Shown in pieces: positions 8,471-20,254 of a stretch of DNA of 64,000 bases. Each line of letters opens with the position of its first letter. Position 1 is the first letter of the stretch. Under the pieces are notes generated by a model. That model saw only the letters and a list, made by a program, of their open reading frames with translations, ran no database searches and was not told the origin of the DNA. Source of the DNA: Cellulomonas iranensis NBRC 101100 = JCM 18110 (GTDB lineage Bacteria; Actinomycetota; Actinomycetes; Actinomycetales; Cellulomonadaceae); contig NZ_BCRB01000004.1 in NCBI RefSeq assembly GCF_001552375.1, positions 1-64,000 of the forward strand, read 5' to 3'. The position numbers and the translations under genes were made by a program.

Positions 8471-9715
8471 TCAGGGTGCGGCGGCCGGCCCGGCGGGGAC
8501 GACGGGCGTCGCGTCGTCGTCCCGCGGCGCACCCGCGACGAGCACGCGCCCGACGCCCGCCACGACGACGCCGGCCGCGACGACGGCGAGCAGCGCGACG
8601 CGCAGGCTCGCGGCGTCCGCGACGACGCCGACCAGGGTCGGGGACACGAGGAACCCGACGCGCAGCAGCCAGCTGACCACGGTGAGCCCGACGCCCGCGG
8701 GCAGCCCGGGCAGCTCGTCGGCGGTGTGCATGACGGCCGGGACGAGCGTCGCGACGCCGAGCCCGGCGAGCGCGAACCCGACGAGCGTGGTCGTGAGCGA
8801 CGGCACCGCGAGCGCCAGGCCCATGCCGCCGGCGATGAGCACGCCGCCGACCCGGGCGACGCGTCGCTGGCCGAACCGGTCGACGACGCGGTCGCCCGTG
8901 AGGCGTCCGACCGTCATGGCGACCTGCAGCGCGACGAACGCGAGGCCCGCGGCGGCGGCGCCGGTGCCGACCTCGCCGCGCAGGTACAGCGCGCCCCACG
9001 ACGAGCCGGCGTCCTCGACGAACGCGGCGGCGGCCGCGAGCACGCCGAGCGCCGCGAGCAGCGCGACGGTGCGCCCGGCGACGTGCCGTAGCGAGCGCGC
9101 GCCGGGGTGCTCGTCGGCGGGGGCGGCGTCGCGCTCGGCGTCCTCGGGGCCGCGGAGCAGGAACCGGTGGGCGACGACGGCGACGACGCTGAAGACGACG
9201 GACGTGACGGCGACGTGCAGCGGCAGCGGGACGTCGAGGCCCGCGGCGACGGAGCCGAGCAGGCCGCCGAGCACGGCGCCGACGCTCCACAGGCCGTGGA
9301 ACGCGTTGACGATGGACCGCCCGTAGAGGCGCTGGACGCGGAACCCGTGGGCGTTCTGCGCGACGTCGACGACCGCGTCGAGCGCGCCGGCGAGCAGGAA
9401 CAGCCCGGCGAGCGCGAACCAGCTGCCGGACAGCGGGATGACGGCGACGGCGGCGGCGAGCGCGACGAGCCCGAACGACGCGACGGCGGCGGACCCGAGC
9501 AGGCGGATGAGCAGCGGTGCGAGCAGCCCGGCGAGCAGCGCGCCGAGCGGCATCGCGGCGATGGCGGTGCCGAGCGCGGCGTTGCTGAGCCCCAGGCCGT
9601 CCTTGACCTCGGGCAGGCGGGGCACGAGGTTGGCGTAGAGCACGGCGTTGACGAGGAAGACGGCCGAGACGGCGACGCGCGCGCGGCGGGCGGTGCGCGT
9701 GACGGGGGCGGGCAT
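8471..9715 (-). CDS. MFS transporter
   Basis: A 414-residue major-facilitator protein with twelve predicted helices. Helix 1 is VAVSAVFLVNAVLYANLVPR, with the motif-A-like loop after helix 2 and a long charged central loop (GPEDAERDAAPADEHPG). The ATG has GGAG four bases upstream. Divergent from the acetyltransferase gene, with a 20-bp near-perfect palindrome in the shared promoter, so the downstream TetR regulator probably controls both directions. Substrate unknown; a drug or sugar efflux role would fit. Confidence 0.88.
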   Translation of the reverse strand: MPAPVTRTARRARVAVSAVFLVNAVLYANLVPRLPEVKDGLGLSNAALGTAIAAMPLGALLAGLLAPLLIRLLGSAAVASFGLVALAAAVAVIPLSGSWFALAGLFLLAGALDAVVDVAQNAHGFRVQRLYGRSIVNAFHGLWSVGAVLGGLLGSVAAGLDVPLPLHVAVTSVVFSVVAVVAHRFLLRGPEDAERDAAPADEHPGARSLRHVAGRTVALLAALGVLAAAAAFVEDAGSSWGALYLRGEVGTGAAAAGLAFVALQVAMTVGRLTGDRVVDRFGQRRVARVGGVLIAGGMGLALAVPSLTTTLVGFALAGLGVATLVPAVMHTADELPGLPAGVGLTVVSWLLRVGFLVSPTLVGVVADAASLRVALLAVVAAGVVVAGVGRVLVAGAPRDDDATPVVPAGPAAAP

Positions 9716-13712: not shown

Positions 13713-14711
13713 GTGGACGGCTCGACAGTCATCGAGGACCCGCCCGTGCTGACGGACGGCGTCGTGACGCTGCGCTGCCTCACGGCCGACGACGTCGACG
13801 CGCTGCTCGCGGGCGAGGACGACGACCAGGTCCGCTGGCTGAGCGAGGGCCACCGCTCCGAGCGCCCGCCCACCACCGCGTGGGTCGCGCAGAACCGCGC
13901 GCAGTGGCGCGACGGCGGGCCGCGGCGGCACCTCGGTGTGCTCGACGCCGCGACGGGCGAGCTCGCGGGCACGGTCGAGGCCCACCTCGCGCTGCCGGAC
14001 CTGCCGCGCGGCACGGCGAACGTGTCCTACGCGGTCCTGCCCGCGTGGCGCGGGCGCGGCTACGCGGTGCGCGCCGTGCGCCTGCTGCGCCGCTGGCTCG
14101 CCGAGCGCACCGACGCCACGAGCGCCGTGCTGCGCGTCGACGCCGCGAACGTCCCGTCGCTGCGGGTCGCGCGCGACGCCGGCTGCCTGCCGCCCGAGCC
14201 CGGGCCCGACGGGCTGCTGCACCACGTGCTGCCGTTGCGTGAGCCCGCGCGGGTCGTGCTGGTGTGCGGGCCCGCCGGCTCCGGCAAGTCGACCCACGCG
14301 GCGCGGCTCGCGCGCGCGGGCTGGGCGCACCTCGCGTTCGACGCCGCCGCGTGGGCGGCCGGGCACCGCGAGCACCCGCTCCCGGCCGACGTCGCGGCAC
14401 GCGTCCACGAGGACCTGCGGGCCCGTCTCGTGGGCCTCGTGGGCGACGGCGTGGACGTCGTCGTCGACACGTCGTTCTGGTCGCGTGCCTCACGCGCGTC
14501 GTACCGCGCGCTGCTCGCGCCGCTCGGGGTCGTGCCCGTCACGCACCACCTCGTCACGCCCCGCGCCGAGGTGCTGCGACGCCTGGCGGCGCGCACGGGC
14601 GCCGGCCCCGACGACGTCGTCGTGCCGCCGGACCGCGCCGCCGTCTACCTCGATGGCTTCGAGGACCCGACGCCCGACGAGGGCCCGCTGGTCCGCGTCC
14701 CGCCCGCCTGA
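13713..14711 (+). CDS. Fusion protein: GNAT acetyltransferase plus P-loop kinase
   Basis: A 332-residue two-domain protein. Residues 12-175 form a RimJ/RimL-type GNAT with YAVLPAWRGRGYAVRAVRLL as acetyl-CoA motif. Residues 180-332 form a small P-loop kinase of the AAA_33/zeta-like kind, with Walker A GPAGSGKST (186-194) and VVVDTSFWSRASR as the Walker-B/lid region. Both active sites look intact. GTG start with CATGAT six bases upstream. The two activities in one chain suggest modification of a common small molecule or antibiotic, but the substrate is unknown. Confidence 0.85.
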   Translation: MDGSTVIEDPPVLTDGVVTLRCLTADDVDALLAGEDDDQVRWLSEGHRSERPPTTAWVAQNRAQWRDGGPRRHLGVLDAATGELAGTVEAHLALPDLPRGTANVSYAVLPAWRGRGYAVRAVRLLRRWLAERTDATSAVLRVDAANVPSLRVARDAGCLPPEPGPDGLLHHVLPLREPARVVLVCGPAGSGKSTHAARLARAGWAHLAFDAAAWAAGHREHPLPADVAARVHEDLRARLVGLVGDGVDVVVDTSFWSRASRASYRALLAPLGVVPVTHHLVTPRAEVLRRLAARTGAGPDDVVVPPDRAAVYLDGFEDPTPDEGPLVRVPPA

Positions 14712-14738
14712 CCCACCTCGCCCGACCCGCCCCCGTCG

Positions 14739-14808
14739 CGACGGACAGCGGTACGGCACGACGGACACGAGCGTGCGGCTATCCGTCGTGCCGTGGGCCT
14801 GTCCGTCG
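14739..14808. repeat. Composite double-arm palindrome, element A
   Basis: Outer arms CGACGGACAG (14739-14748) and CTGTCCGTCG (14799-14808) enclose inner arms CGGCACGACGGA (14754-14765) and TCCGTCGTGCCG (14782-14793), all perfect. The same outer arms recur at 17809-17878. It lies between the GNAT-kinase stop and the membrane-protein start. Function unknown: a termination structure or mobile palindrome is possible. Confidence 0.8.
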
Positions 14809-14916
14809 AGGTGGTGGCGGGGCGGCGCCCTCCGGGGCGCGGCGGGGTGCGGACCGGGGGCGGTACCGTGGCGCGCGCCGAACCGACGGCGGCGTGCGCC
14901 GAACCGGAGGAGACCC

Positions 14917-15405
14917 GTGACCGAGCCGACACCGACGGACGCGCCTGCCGACGGCACGCCGCCGACCGCCGACGCGTCCCGCACCGCCGACGCGCCTCGT
15001 CCGGCCGACGCGCCGCAGCGCACCGGCACCGCGTGCCTCGAGATCCACGTGCTGCCGTGGAGGCGACGCACGCGGATGGTCGACTTCGGGCCCATCGGCG
15101 GCATCCCGTCGGTCGACGACGACGTCCTCGGACCCGTCGTCGCGACGCTGTTCACGGTGCTGGGGATCCTGTTCACCGTCGTCGTGGTCGGGTCGGTCGT
15201 GCTCGTGCTGCTCGAGCTGTGGGTGCTGCTCGCGCTCGCGGTCCTGCTGCTGCTCGCGCGGTTCGTCGGGCTGCTGCCGTGGGTCGTCGACCCCGCGACC
15301 GGCGGTCCGCGCGAGCGCTACCGCTGGCTGCCGAACGCCGTGCGCCGCGTGCGCGCGCTCAACGGCGGCGGCCGGGTCCGCGTCCGCTGGTCCTGGGTCG
15401 GTTGA
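14917..15405 (+). CDS. Small membrane protein, unknown function
   Basis: A 162-residue protein with no family I recognise. Residues 1-45 are a disordered Ala/Pro/Thr/Asp tail. A conserved-looking stretch, LEIHVLPWRRRTRMVDFGPI, comes next. Two close hydrophobic helices (about 68-118) follow, then a basic C-terminus (RERYRWLPNAVRRVRALN). GTG with GGAGGAG five bases upstream. Composite palindrome A lies just upstream. A real gene by its ribosome site and codon use. Confidence 0.7.
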   Translation: MTEPTPTDAPADGTPPTADASRTADAPRPADAPQRTGTACLEIHVLPWRRRTRMVDFGPIGGIPSVDDDVLGPVVATLFTVLGILFTVVVVGSVVLVLLELWVLLALAVLLLLARFVGLLPWVVDPATGGPRERYRWLPNAVRRVRALNGGGRVRVRWSWVG

Positions 15406-15492
15406 CGACGCCCGGGCGGCCGCGCGGTCGGTGAGGCGGTCCGCCGCCCGCCGACGCGTCGGTCCGCCCCCCGGCTGTGCGGCGGTGCGGCA

Positions 15493-15520
15493 CCTCACCG
15501 TGCGGTGCGGGAGGGTGAGG
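15493..15520. terminator. Candidate terminator between convergent genes
   Basis: CCTCACC and GGTGAGG arms separated by 14 nt, ending immediately before the stop codon of the minus-strand gene. Modest stem, no T-run. Confidence 0.35.
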
Positions 15521-16015
15521 TCAGGCGTCGCGCAGGGCCGTCCAGCGCAGGTGCACGTCGAGCGGCAGACCGTCCTCGGTGCCCGCGTCGTCGACGAGCT
15601 CGCCGGGCACCGCGCGGCGCATGGCGTCCGGCACGGGCCGCGACACGGGTGCGCCGTAGTCGTCGGTCCAGTCGATCTCGTCGTCGTCGGTCGGGTCGAA
15701 CGCGATGCCGTGGTCGGCCCAGAACCCGGCGGCGTACCGGTCCTCGATCGTGCGCAGCAGCGCGTACGTGCCCTGCTCGTCCTCGGGCACGTCCTCGACG
15801 CGGGCGTAGCGCGCGTAGTAGCTCGCGCCGAGGATCCAGTACGCGCTCAGCGCGGTCGCCCGGTCCGTCGTCGGGTCGTCGAGCACGGCGCGCACCAGGT
15901 GCTCGCCGCGGTCGTAGTCCGCGCGCCGCACGAACGTGTGGCGCTGCTGCGGGGTCGCCGCGGCGAGGAACTCGCGCAGGAACTGGTCCGGGTCGTCGGT
16001 CGCGGGGGAGCTCAC
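15521..16015 (-). CDS. DUF4274-like hypothetical protein
   Basis: A 164-residue acidic cytoplasmic protein. The segment LVRAVLDDPTTDRATALSAYWILGASYYARY resembles the core of DUF4274-type proteins (a helix with a paired aromatic motif), but this is recalled from pattern only. No transmembrane segment or catalytic motif is visible. GTG start at 16015. No operon partner; the next gene on this strand begins 95 bp upstream. Confidence 0.65.
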   Translation of the reverse strand: MSSPATDDPDQFLREFLAAATPQQRHTFVRRADYDRGEHLVRAVLDDPTTDRATALSAYWILGASYYARYARVEDVPEDEQGTYALLRTIEDRYAAGFWADHGIAFDPTDDDEIDWTDDYGAPVSRPVPDAMRRAVPGELVDDAGTEDGLPLDVHLRWTALRDA

Positions 16016-16110
16016 CCGGCGATGCTAGACGCCCGCCCCGAGCCGTGCCCGTGGCCGGCCGCAGCCCGTGCCACCCACCCTGCCACCCGCCTCGCCGGTC
16101 ACCCCGCGAC

Positions 16111-17673
16111 TCACCAGGCGGCGCGCGCGTAGTCCTTGAGGAAGCACCCGTACAGGTCCTCGCCGGCCTCGCCCCGCACGATCGGGTCGTAGACGCGCGC
16201 GGCGCCGTCCACCAGGTCGAGCGGGGCGTGGAACCCCTCCTCGGCGAGGCGCACCTTGGTGTGGTGCGGGCGCTCGTCGGTGATCCAGCCCGTGTCGACG
16301 GCGGTCATGAGGATGCCGTCCTGCTCGAGCATCTGCGCCGCGCTCGTGCGGGTCAGCATGTTGAGCGCGGCCTTGCTCATGTTGGTGTGCGGGTGGCCGG
16401 GACCCTTGTACCCGCGCGAGAACACGCCCTCCATGGCCGACACGTTGACGACGTACGTGCGGCGCGCGGGCGACGCCGCGAGGGCGGGCCGCAGCCGGCT
16501 GATGAGGATGAACGGCGCCGTCTGGTTGCACAGCTGCACCTCGAGCAGCTCCATCGGGTCGACCTGCTCGACCGTCGCGACCCACGAGTTGCTCTCGGCG
16601 ACGTCGGGGATGAGCCCGCCCGCGTCGATCGACGTGCCCGCGACGAGCCGCTCGAGGCTCGCGGCCTGCGCCGTGAGCGACTGCTCGACGAGCTCCTGCG
16701 CGTCCCGCGCGGCGCGCTCGATCGCGAGCGCGGGGCTCGTCAGGTCGCTCACCGACCCGGCGAGCGCGCGCGGGTGGGCGTCGCTCGTGTGCCCGAACGC
16801 GGTGATCATGCGGTCCCCGTCGTCCGGCAGCGGGGACAGCTCGGCGTCGACGAGCCGCGAGTACGCGCCGGGGGATCGCCGTACGGTCTGCGCGGCGTTG
16901 TTGATGAGCACGTCGAGCGGACCCTGCGCGGCGACGTGGTCGGCGAGCTGCACCACCTGCGCGGGGTCGCGCAGGTCGATCCCGACGACGTGCAGCCGGT
17001 CCATCCAGTCCGCGGAGTCCTCCATGGCGCCGAAGCGGCGCACCGCGTCCCGCGGGAACCGGGTCGTGATGGTGAGGTCGGCGCCGTCACGCAGCAGCCG
17101 CAGCGCGATGTACATGCCGATCTTGGCGCGCCCACCCGTGAGCAGCGCCCGCCGCCCGGTGAGGTCGGTGCGCGCGTCGCGCTTGGCGTGGTGCAGCGCC
17201 GCGCAGGCGGGGCAGAGCTGGTGGTAGAACGCGTCGACCACCGTGTAGTCCTGCTTGCAGACGTAGCAGGGGCGCGCGCGCAGCAGCGTCCCCGCCGTCG
17301 CGCCCGTCGCGTTCGACGTCAGCGCGATGCCGCGCGTCTCGTCGTCGATGCGGCCCGGGCTGCCGGTCGCGGTCGCGGCGACCACGGCCGCGTCGGCCTC
17401 GGCGATCGAGCGGCGCCGCTCGAGCCGGCGGTGCTTCTTCGCGGCCTTGAACAGCGCCGAGGCGGCGCGGCGGGCGACCGCGTGCTGCGGGTGGTCCTGC
17501 GGCAGCGCCGCGACCTGGTCGGCGACCCGCAGGAACGTCGCGAGGTCGGCGGGGTCGACGCCGGGGAGCGTGCCGTCGGGCGGGGTGGCGTCGGGCACGC
17601 TGCCGTCGGCGGTCGCGTCGTCGTCGGTCGTCGCGGCGGGGTGCCCCGCGGGGGCCGTGGTGTCCGCGCTCAT
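16111..17673 (-). CDS. SDR-family oxidoreductase with N-terminal zinc-ribbon module
   Basis: A 520-residue protein. Residues 1-40 are disordered and 45-120 helical and basic (KAAKKHRRLERRRS). A CYVC...CPAC four-cysteine module follows (about 135-160). The rest is a short-chain dehydrogenase with GGRAKIGMYIAL as nucleotide-binding loop, LINNAAQT and VNVSAMEGVFSRGYKGPG. At the catalytic YxxxK position it reads TNMSK: the Lys is kept but the Tyr is replaced, so another residue (perhaps the Tyr of GYKGPG) or another chemistry must act. Substrate unknown. Divergent from the DinB gene, with composite palindrome B between them. Confidence 0.8.
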   Translation of the reverse strand: MSADTTAPAGHPAATTDDDATADGSVPDATPPDGTLPGVDPADLATFLRVADQVAALPQDHPQHAVARRAASALFKAAKKHRRLERRRSIAEADAAVVAATATGSPGRIDDETRGIALTSNATGATAGTLLRARPCYVCKQDYTVVDAFYHQLCPACAALHHAKRDARTDLTGRRALLTGGRAKIGMYIALRLLRDGADLTITTRFPRDAVRRFGAMEDSADWMDRLHVVGIDLRDPAQVVQLADHVAAQGPLDVLINNAAQTVRRSPGAYSRLVDAELSPLPDDGDRMITAFGHTSDAHPRALAGSVSDLTSPALAIERAARDAQELVEQSLTAQAASLERLVAGTSIDAGGLIPDVAESNSWVATVEQVDPMELLEVQLCNQTAPFILISRLRPALAASPARRTYVVNVSAMEGVFSRGYKGPGHPHTNMSKAALNMLTRTSAAQMLEQDGILMTAVDTGWITDERPHHTKVRLAEEGFHAPLDLVDGAARVYDPIVRGEAGEDLYGCFLKDYARAAW

Positions 17674-17808
17674 GCGCCGTCCGTCCTGCGTGGGGAAGGG
17701 CCCGTCCGGTCACCGGGGCCCGGAAGATCGTACGCGCTGCCCCCGCGTTGCCCCCGGCACGAGCGCCCGTCCTCGCACCGCTCGCGCGCGCCTGCGTGCT
17801 CCAGTCGT

Positions 17809-17878
17809 CGACGGACAGCCCGACGGTCCCACGGACACCGGCGCGCGCGTGCCCGTGGGACCGGGGCGCTGTCCGTCG
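17809..17878. repeat. Composite double-arm palindrome, element B
   Basis: Outer arms CGACGGACAGC (17809-17819) and GCTGTCCGTCG (17868-17878) match those of element A. Inner arms GGTCCCACGG (17825-17834) and CCGTGGGACC (17853-17862) are different in sequence but equal in layout. It sits in the divergent gap between the SDR and DinB genes, so simple termination does not explain it. Confidence 0.8.
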
Positions 17879-17937
17879 GTGGCCGGGGTGGGGCATGGCT
17901 ACGGTGGTTCGTCGCGTCCGACCGAAGGAGGCCCGCC

Positions 17938-18423
17938 TTGCCCACCTCGCCCGTGTCGTCGCCGGCGTCGTCGTCCGAGCGGACGCTGCTCGAGACGTTC
18001 CTCGACGGCTGCCGGACCGCGCTCCCGGCCACGCTCGACGGCCTCGACGAGGAGCAGGTCCGGCGTCGGCTGGTGCCGTCGCGGACCACCCTGCTGGGGC
18101 TGCTCAAGCACCTGACGTACGTCGAGGCGTTCTGGTTCCAGCACGCCGTCACGGGGGCGTCGCTGCGCGACCTGGGTGTGGCCTCGACGCCCGACCGCTC
18201 GTTCGTGCTGCGGAAGGACGACTCGGCGGCCTCGCTGCGCGCCGCGCACGCGGCGGTGGTCGAGGCGTCCCGCGCGGCCGTGGCGGGGCGTCCGTTCGAC
18301 GAGGTCGTCACGGGTCGCGGGCGGCCCGTCAGCGTCCGGTTCGTGCACCTGCAGGTGCTCAAGGAGTACGCGCAGCACACCGGCCACGCCGACATCCTGC
18401 GCGAGCAGCTGCTCGCGGGCTGA
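17938..18423 (+). CDS. DinB/YfiT-like four-helix protein
   Basis: A 161-residue DinB-superfamily (DUF664-type) protein. The metal-site histidines are visible in LLKHLTYVEAFWFQHA and LQVLKEYAQHTGHADILREQL, the classic three-His arrangement of thiol-dependent S-transferase-like DinB proteins. The start is a TTG at 17938: AGGAGG lies seven bases before it and no ATG or GTG lies nearby in frame. The promoter probably uses TACGGT near 17889. Mycothiol- or bacillithiol-type chemistry is inferred from family only. Confidence 0.82.
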   Translation: MPTSPVSSPASSSERTLLETFLDGCRTALPATLDGLDEEQVRRRLVPSRTTLLGLLKHLTYVEAFWFQHAVTGASLRDLGVASTPDRSFVLRKDDSAASLRAAHAAVVEASRAAVAGRPFDEVVTGRGRPVSVRFVHLQVLKEYAQHTGHADILREQLLAG

Positions 18424-18447
18424 CGGGCACCGGCCGGGGCGGACCCC

Positions 18448-19269
18448 TCAGCGGCGGCGCGCGACGAGCGTCGTGACGACCGGGGCGAGCAGCGCGACGG
18501 CCGACGCGACGAACGCGGCGTTCGCGACGGTCGCGTCGACGAGCGGGCCGTTGGTGCGGCCCAGGCCGATCCATGCCAGGCCCCACGCCATCGCCAGGCC
18601 GATCGGCAGCGCGACCGCGGGCCGCACGCGCGCGAACACGGCGTACGCGACGGACAGCGCCGCGCCCGCGGCGAGCACGACCACGGACCACGTCGTGGCG
18701 CCCAGGCCGAGCTCGCCGATCTCGGCCACCGTGAGGAACGCGGCGACGTTCGCGAGCGTCGCGACGCTCACCCACCCCAGGTACAGGCCGGTCGTCACGT
18801 CGGTCACCGCCGACGGCAGCGCCGCGGTGTGCGACGTACGGACCAGCCGCACGAGCACGACGGACAGCACGACGACCAGCGCGACGATGACGAGCACGCT
18901 GCCGCCCACCGACCCGGCCTGCACGACGCCGATCCACAGGGCGTTGAGCAGCATCGACGCGAGCAGCCACCACGACACGGCCCGCAGCCGCGCGTCGGAC
19001 GCGTACCGCGGCAGCGCCTGCACGACCGCGAACACCAGGAGCGCGGTGTAGATGACGGACCAGATCGAGAACGCGGGGGTGTCCGGCGCGAGCGGGGTCG
19101 CGCTCGCGGACAGCGCGCCGCCCGCGGCGTCGGCGGTCGACTGCCCGCCGAACGCGCCCGACCCGTACGCCGCACCGAGCGCGGCGACGAGCGACCCGAC
19201 GAGGACGACGACCTGCCGGACCCGGTCGCGGGTCGTGGCGGTCCCGGTGGTGGCGGTGAGGGAGGTCAT
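18448..19269 (-). CDS. TspO/MBR-like tryptophan-rich membrane protein
   Basis: A 273-residue membrane protein with about eight hydrophobic helices. FSIWSVIYTALLVFAVVQAL, the WWLLASMLLNALWIG pair and the LYLGWVSVATLANVAA segment are the Trp/Asn-rich signatures of the long TspO-related family. It may sense or bind small hydrophobic molecules such as porphyrins; this is inference. ATG start. Divergent from the alpha/beta hydrolase with only 78 bp between, where CTCAGCCTGCTGAG (12 of 14 symmetric) could be an operator. Confidence 0.75.
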   Translation of the reverse strand: MTSLTATTGTATTRDRVRQVVVLVGSLVAALGAAYGSGAFGGQSTADAAGGALSASATPLAPDTPAFSIWSVIYTALLVFAVVQALPRYASDARLRAVSWWLLASMLLNALWIGVVQAGSVGGSVLVIVALVVVLSVVLVRLVRTSHTAALPSAVTDVTTGLYLGWVSVATLANVAAFLTVAEIGELGLGATTWSVVVLAAGAALSVAYAVFARVRPAVALPIGLAMAWGLAWIGLGRTNGPLVDATVANAAFVASAVALLAPVVTTLVARRR

Positions 19270-19347
19270 GCCCCCAGCGTGCACTTCCTCAGCCTGCTGA
19301 GCATCTTGAACGCCCGCCCGGCTCCGCGGCCTGCCTAGGCTCGTGCC

Positions 19348-20151
19348 GTGACCACCCCCGCGCCCGTCCCCCTGGCCTCGACCGTCGTCGGCGACACCGG
19401 TGCCCCGGTCGTCTTCCTGCACGGCCTGTTCGGGCAGGGGCGCAACTTCACGCAGATCGCGAAGGCCCTCGCGCCGGACGCGCGGTCGCTGCTGGTCGAC
19501 CTGCCGAACCACGGGCGTTCGGCGTGGACCGAGCGGTTCGACTACCTCGAGGTCGCCGACGCGGTCGCGGCGCACCTGCGCGGCGGGTTCGCGGCCGACG
19601 GCCCCGTGCACGTCGTGGGGCACTCGATGGGCGGCAAGGTCGCGATGGTCCTGGCGCTGCGCCACCCCGACGTCGTCGACCGGCTCGTCGTCGCGGACAT
19701 CTCCCCGACCGCGCGTGGCTCGCTCGGGGAGTTCGAGCACCTGCTGGACAGCCTCGCGGCGCTCGACCTGCCGTCGCTGACGCGCCGCTCCGACGCCGAC
19801 GACGCGCTCGCGCAGCGCGTCGACGACCCGCGCGTGCGCGGGTTCCTGCTGCAGAACCTGCGCGCCGACGGCGACACGTTCCGGTGGCAGGCGAACCTCG
19901 CGCTGCTGCGCCGCGACCTGCGCGCGATCGGCGGCTTCCCCGACCTGGGCGACGCGGTCGACGACGGCCCCGTGCTGTGGGTCGCCGGCGAGCGGTCCGA
20001 CTACGTGCGCCCCGAGGACGGCCCGACGATGCGCCGGTACTTCCCGCGCACGACGCTCGTGACGATCAAGGGCGCCGGGCACTGGGTGCACTCGGAGCAG
20101 CCCGCGGCGTTCGTGTCGGTGCTGCGCACGTTCCTCGAGCTCGGGGCCTGA
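19348..20151 (+). CDS. Alpha/beta hydrolase, YbfF-like esterase
   Basis: A 267-residue hydrolase of the YbfF/acyl-esterase kind: oxyanion loop VVFLHGLFGQGRNF, nucleophile elbow GHSMGGK, acid D in the VAGERSDYV region and catalytic His in KGAGHWVHSEQP. Cytoplasmic, no signal peptide. Substrate probably a short-chain acyl or thioester. GTG start with TAGGCT six bases before it (leaderless). Confidence 0.88.
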   Translation: MTTPAPVPLASTVVGDTGAPVVFLHGLFGQGRNFTQIAKALAPDARSLLVDLPNHGRSAWTERFDYLEVADAVAAHLRGGFAADGPVHVVGHSMGGKVAMVLALRHPDVVDRLVVADISPTARGSLGEFEHLLDSLAALDLPSLTRRSDADDALAQRVDDPRVRGFLLQNLRADGDTFRWQANLALLRRDLRAIGGFPDLGDAVDDGPVLWVAGERSDYVRPEDGPTMRRYFPRTTLVTIKGAGHWVHSEQPAAFVSVLRTFLELGA

Positions 20152-20157
20152 CGGCGG

Positions 20158-20254
20158 CGACACCGTCGTCGGTCGCCCCGACGCACGCTTCGGGGCGACC
20201 GAAGACGGTGTCGGTGTGCGTCGGGGGCGACGGACGACGGTGTCGGTGTGCGTC
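20158..20254. repeat. Composite double-arm palindrome, element C, with 19-bp direct repeat
   Basis: Outer arms CGACACCGTC (20158-20167) / GACGGTGTCG (20204-20213), inner arms GGTCGCCCCGA (20171-20181) / TCGGGGCGACC (20190-20200). Its layout matches elements A and B but with new arm sequences. The 19-mer GACGGTGTCGGTGTGCGTC then occurs twice (20204-20222 and 20236-20254). It begins 7 bp after the hydrolase stop. The rest of the gap to 20442 shows only the TACCGT promoter of the next gene. Confidence 0.8.

Follow-up and report, generated by a model that had tools for sequence, protein, structure and literature searches.

The question raised by this locus is what its composite palindromes are, and whether they represent one kind of element. 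An earlier note on this DNA had described three intergenic elements, A, B and C, sharing a single design in which an outer perfect arm encloses an inner one around a loop. In the window (the whole 64,000-nt stretch of Cellulomonas iranensis DNA that was analysed), these three places alone have nested arms 9 bp or more in length, and the window hairpins have folding energies 5 to 9 standard deviations under those of shuffled sequences. The common design holds for two of the three: A and B are exact nested palindromes, present as described, with outer and inner arms of 10 and 13 bp in A and of 11 and 11 bp in B, and belong to a dispersed family built from a 9-bp box, CGACGGACA, whereas C is one stem without boxes. 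The features of A and B are as follows.

14739..14808, unstranded: element A, four-box palindrome of 70 bp (exact pattern match; covariance model 83.7 bits; fold -48.5 kcal/mol, z -5.4)
14739..14747, + strand: A box 1 (outer left), CGACGGACA (sequence; alignment A2)
14759..14767, + strand: A box 2 (inner left), CGACGGACA (sequence; alignment A2)
14780..14788, - strand: A box 3 (inner right), + strand reads TATCCGTCG, one substitution (sequence; alignment A2)
14800..14808, - strand: A box 4 (outer right), + strand reads TGTCCGTCG (sequence; alignment A2)
14679..14738, unstranded: left flank of A, C-rich, within the skew domain (A's switch of 0.96; family means)
14809..14868, unstranded: right flank of A, G-rich (skew profiles)
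17809..17878, unstranded: element B, four-box palindrome of 70 bp (pattern match; covariance model 77.3 bits; fold -55.7 kcal/mol, z -6.2)
17829..17837, + strand: B box 2, variant CCACGGACA (alignment A2)
17850..17858, - strand: B box 3, + strand reads TGCCCGTGG (alignment A2)

As the note had it, B lies in a divergent gap, between an SDR-domain gene ending at 16111 (-) and a mycothiol-S-transferase-like gene starting at about 17938 (+), named from the Pfam matches of the neighbours, and both A and C follow gene 3′ ends. There is no T-run, and hence no U-tract, on either side of A or B, and neither matched an Rfam family.

The third element differs from these two in both sequence and form.

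20158..20213, + strand: element C, single near-perfect hairpin of 23-24 bp (arm search, fold; not matched by the family models)

C starts 6 bp past an alpha/beta-hydrolase-like gene, whose stop codon is at 20151. One mismatch breaks its stem, the pattern of its outer arm occurs just once in the genome, and C is missing from the sister genome Cellulomonas sp. B6, where the orthologous gene has a different downstream sequence. Given this, and the fact that neither family model (R1 or R2) matched it, we do not count C among the family. The best reading is a terminator-like hairpin of the ordinary sort that lacks a U-tract. Rfam returned only sub-threshold plant-miRNA matches for it. A 19-bp direct repeat, GACGGTGTCGGTGTGCGTC, at 20204-20222 and 20236-20254, overlaps and then follows the hairpin, and a few other hairpins in C. 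iranensis (for example at C19:38660 and C134:4711) bear a weak partial likeness to it.

Further copies of A and B were sought across the whole C. iranensis genome (3.97 Mb in 201 contigs). The pattern CGACGGACAGN{35,65}CTGTCCGTCG gave five matches against none for the reversed control, so that A and B are indeed multi-copy, and with a covariance model trained on these five matches, 19 loci were located in C. iranensis, one of them truncated where a contig ends, and 26 in B6. Box pairs numbered 38 in C. iranensis, 60 in B6 and 57 in C. composti, with 0, 2 and 3 in the respective reversed controls. A number of copies coincide with a contig end or stand no more than about 60 bp from one, both in C. 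iranensis (C3:10; C69:21148, where the contig ends at 21185; C81:61; C112:9337, where it ends at 9452) and in B6 (C180 and C132), which suggests that short-read assemblies break at the hairpins, the copy numbers then being lower bounds.

Alignment of 41 copies explains the nested arms of A and B: the same box is used four times in mirror order (two forward, loop, two reversed) at a spacing of 19-20 bp, occupying columns 1-9 and 21-29, with its complement at columns 42-50 and 62-70. A frequent variant is C[G/C]ACGGACA, and it is the common C at position 2 (CCACGGACA) that gives the inner arm of B its different appearance. The proposal that halves are swapped between elements thus does not survive: the inner arms of both A and B carry the outer-arm box, and only the spacers differ, drifting in place in orthologues. 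Apart from the boxes, a GCRYGC centre is conserved between variable spacers, and conservation reaches three bases beyond the ends, as CGY...RCG. The base at position -1 is C in 40%, T in 37% and G in 23%. The ends often read CGTC (cgt|CGACGG). The whole element, a hairpin of 69-70 nt with a stem of about 30 bp and a centre of 10-12 nt, folds strongly (-35 to -61 kcal/mol, mean z -5.5), whereas the folding of half-elements does not surpass that of shuffled sequences (mean z +1.06). The covariation that the note had proposed to look for in the inner arms turned out to be weak, with 84.1% of spacer cells paired against 82.7% in shuffles. We therefore discarded the idea of an RNA structure kept through compensatory change; the marginal excess implies that box sequence has been preserved more than base pairing has.

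Comparison of 12 orthologous pairs between C. iranensis and B6 gave the same picture, with mismatches at 5.3% of positions in boxes, 13.2% in loops, 16.2% in spacers and 25.1% in flanks (boxes versus spacers, P=5e-6). The boxes are conserved while spacers and flanks drift, which may reflect constraint or concerted evolution, since the boxes could likewise stay similar through conversion between copies. Identity between copies within a genome reaches a maximum of 88.6%, and this lack of near-identical copies implies that there was no recent burst. Copies have nonetheless been gained or lost between the sister species: the site at C17:24480 is filled in C. iranensis and missing from B6, and the reverse is true at C33:563 and several further B6-only sites. 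At one B6-filled site (L046) C. iranensis has an unrelated 17-bp hairpin at the same spot (L115), and at another (L121) it has three boxes in direct orientation and no inverted arm. Empty sites lie in diverged intergenic DNA, giving no clean junction at which a target-site duplication could be read.

All 44 copies examined are intergenic, none overlapping a called gene (genes were called with a simple codon-position score, making their starts approximate). At the majority of classified copies at least one neighbouring gene ends towards the element, often with its stop 20-60 bp before it, and yet the family is not limited to transcript 3′ ends: the 38 copies with genes on both sides, orthologues being counted twice, comprise 24 in tandem, 8 in divergent and 6 in convergent gaps. 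Neither of the outcomes that the note had named as refuting it, a lack of further copies or a restriction to transcript 3′ ends, was thus observed. Judged by the window, in which gaps of at least 110 bp sum to 4354 bases in tandem, 6165 in divergent and 924 in convergent orientation, divergent gaps appear to be under-used. Neighbouring genes have no function in common, and a regulon was set aside on those grounds. Two side observations concern the surroundings of particular copies. In B6, two family members flank a short array resembling a type I-E CRISPR (L041 on C224, 518-1372; repeat like CTCATCCCCGCTCGCGGGGAGACGAC). In addition, an unrelated hairpin common to C. iranensis and B6, CGACGGCCCCGGTCCCCTCG, with an arm of 19 bp, has a member of the family some 0.8-0.9 kb away (L067 1089-1130 and L059 2845-2886).

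Each copy also lies at the centre of a compositional domain of about 190 bp that changes from C-rich to G-rich and extends about 60 bp into the flank on each side. The outward-read strand is G-rich on both sides, with a skew of 0.34 at 1-20 bp that declines to about 0.07 by 60-80 bp. The switch across the element has a mean of +0.57 and is present in every gene-orientation class, whereas intergenic regions free of the element give 0.03 at their midpoints (P=2.5e-12); in a comparison with the ordinary intergenic hairpins that these genomes carry, the family scores 0.31 against 0.06 (P=6e-6). Within the window, no C-to-G switch taken across a 70-bp gap is stronger than that of A (0.96). By eye, a similar switch seems to be present at no fewer than two empty sites (L118 and L122), and the skew may thus precede or outlive the palindrome. 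Extended pairing of the C-rich with the G-rich flanks was rejected, true partners pairing no better than mismatched ones, as was a 20-bp periodicity of the flanks, which is not general; an in-phase third box scored z 3.5 at the 19-bp offset, with two other offsets scoring similarly.

The family is narrowly distributed. Model R1 gave no match or weak single matches in 22 further genomes of the genus (B6 and C. composti aside), and model R2 found no further carrier among 150 genomes of the bacterial family, a sample without B6. The four-box pattern, run over 84,980 species genomes, had matches in B6 and C. composti and otherwise in just a few distant MAGs. C. composti carries a diverged tandem form, with arrays of 19-bp box units in mirror order (L096 4130-4850 and G010:C4:248778-249290) and up to about seven successive boxes in one direction; four copies at 162-bp spacing lie between genes that read, from their translations, as MFS-like and purA-like. 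The distant MAGs carry CACGGAC repeats, at a spacing of about 10 bp in three of them; in those from Acidobacteria, Spirochaetia and Lentisphaerae (L089, L094, L101) these form hairpins with three to four repeats per arm. They are probably separate families. Viral contigs gave no match that would point to a phage origin. In our literature search we met no account of repeats like these from Cellulomonas, and as far as we could find this family of roughly 70-base repeats is previously undescribed.

RAYT transposases are the usual explanation for palindromic intergenic repeats. The associated transposase that the note had suggested looking for did not emerge: the Y1_Tnp domain (PF01797; RAYT/IS200) had no match in C. 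iranensis, B6 or C. composti and was detected in five control genomes, there was no transposase among 30 neighbours, and the surroundings of ten rve-domain genes held no box pairs and one single box only. The results above establish the repeat family, the conservation of its boxes, its position between genes and its skew. Taking the evidence together, we think it reasonably likely that A and B represent a REP/MITE-like family, non-coding and restricted to this lineage, whose boxes are read by a protein and whose hairpin has a role in transcripts. The boxes would be recognition sites for a protein encoded elsewhere that moves or maintains the element in trans. The hairpin, transcribed from either side after a C-rich stretch, could end transcripts, cause pausing or affect mRNA stability whatever the direction of transcription, a role that would explain why copies are tolerated near gene 3′ ends. 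Against this account stand the failure of the searches above to turn up an enzyme, the lack of near-identical copies and the eight copies in divergent gaps, for which a terminator role is not obvious.

The copies might instead be plain transcription terminators of this lineage that share their stem sequence by chance. Their frequent position just past a stop codon, the C-rich stretch that precedes the hairpin on both strands, and the unrelated hairpin at L115, which occupies the place of a B6 copy, would all fit. We nevertheless regard this as rather unlikely: the ordinary intergenic hairpins of these genomes have neither boxes nor skew, A and B have no U-tract, a few dozen copies would serve a genome of thousands of genes, and eight copies lie in divergent gaps. 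The conservation of boxes over spacers, with its weak spacer covariation, would also fit operator or architectural sites for a DNA-binding protein, whether of a regulon or chromosome-organising, the palindrome being a binding dyad and not mobile. The fixed spacing of about two helical turns agrees with this, as do the direct box arrays at 19-bp spacing in C. composti and the three direct boxes at L121. Such sites would, however, have to come and go between sister species, be absent from nearly all other Cellulomonas genomes, sit in many cases at gene 3′ ends and keep company with genes of unrelated function, and we judge the explanation unlikely.

That the elements are REPINs, in which two REPs in inverted order are mobilised together by a RAYT transposase, is the reading to which we give least credence. 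In their length of about 70 nt, inverted design, extragenic position and conserved ends with variable spacers they match the published description (PMC3116915). No Y1/RAYT gene was found in any of the three carrier genomes, however, which contradicts this reading unless the search overlooked a diverged HUH enzyme; the halves do not fold alone, so that there are no single REPs; and the profile of ends and flanks showed no GTAG tag (CGY..RCG is found instead) and, given the mixture of bases at position -1, no strict CGTC tag. Returning to the protein-read, REP/MITE-like family that we favour, a bolder version of it would make this a new class of repeat, in which mirror-image box arrays with a 19-20 bp period are spread and maintained through a dedicated non-RAYT protein that reads the boxes and the skew marks a direction-independent, possibly Rho-linked, transcription boundary; we consider this speculative and improbable.

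Among known systems, MITEs have terminal inverted repeats, a target-site duplication and an autonomous parent with the same ends. The Cellulomonas elements are likewise small, non-coding, almost fully palindromic, intergenic and present or absent between relatives, and their outer 9 bp, nearly invariant across the 41 copies, form terminal inverted repeats; unlike MITEs, they carry boxes in tandem within each arm. No parent was found among the rve-domain genes or the 30 neighbours. Integron attC sites, which have an AAC/GTT core in their R boxes and occur in cassette arrays, similarly combine variable spacers with inverted boxes in two pairs, but the Cellulomonas box (CGACGGACA/TGTCCGTCG) has no such core, and its copies are scattered single sites outside any cassette array. 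The likeness to REPINs and GTAG-tagged REPs extends to being short, dispersed, species-restricted palindromes that form extragenic hairpins of about 70 nt with conserved ends and variable spacers (PMC3116915, PMC3733652), and the Cellulomonas family is indeed extragenic, dispersed and an inverted-repeat hairpin (44 of 44 intergenic; 19 and 26 loci; mean z -5.5). It differs from them in its RAYT-free genomes, non-palindromic halves and lack of the GTAG tag, as well as in having four direct and inverted box copies, far fewer copies and skewed flanks. Since the RAYT, palindromic halves and tag that define REPINs are missing, we file it under palindromic repeats and not as a REPIN. CGTC-tagged REPs, including dRS3 of Neisseria, have a stem of 8-9 bp, a loop of 4-5 bp and a CCA tail, and the CGTC type is noted as being without a dedicated enzyme, in a paper that makes no mention of Actinobacteria (PMC3733652). 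The present elements are likewise palindromic without a dedicated transposase and often end in CGTC, although their tag is not conserved, their stem is some 30 bp long and their centre is 10-12 nt. What the comparison leaves is a RAYT-free family in high-GC Actinobacteria with a four-box architecture, filled and unfilled sites between sister species and a composition switch at each copy, and thus a small, tractable case in which to ask what moves or maintains RAYT-free palindromes.
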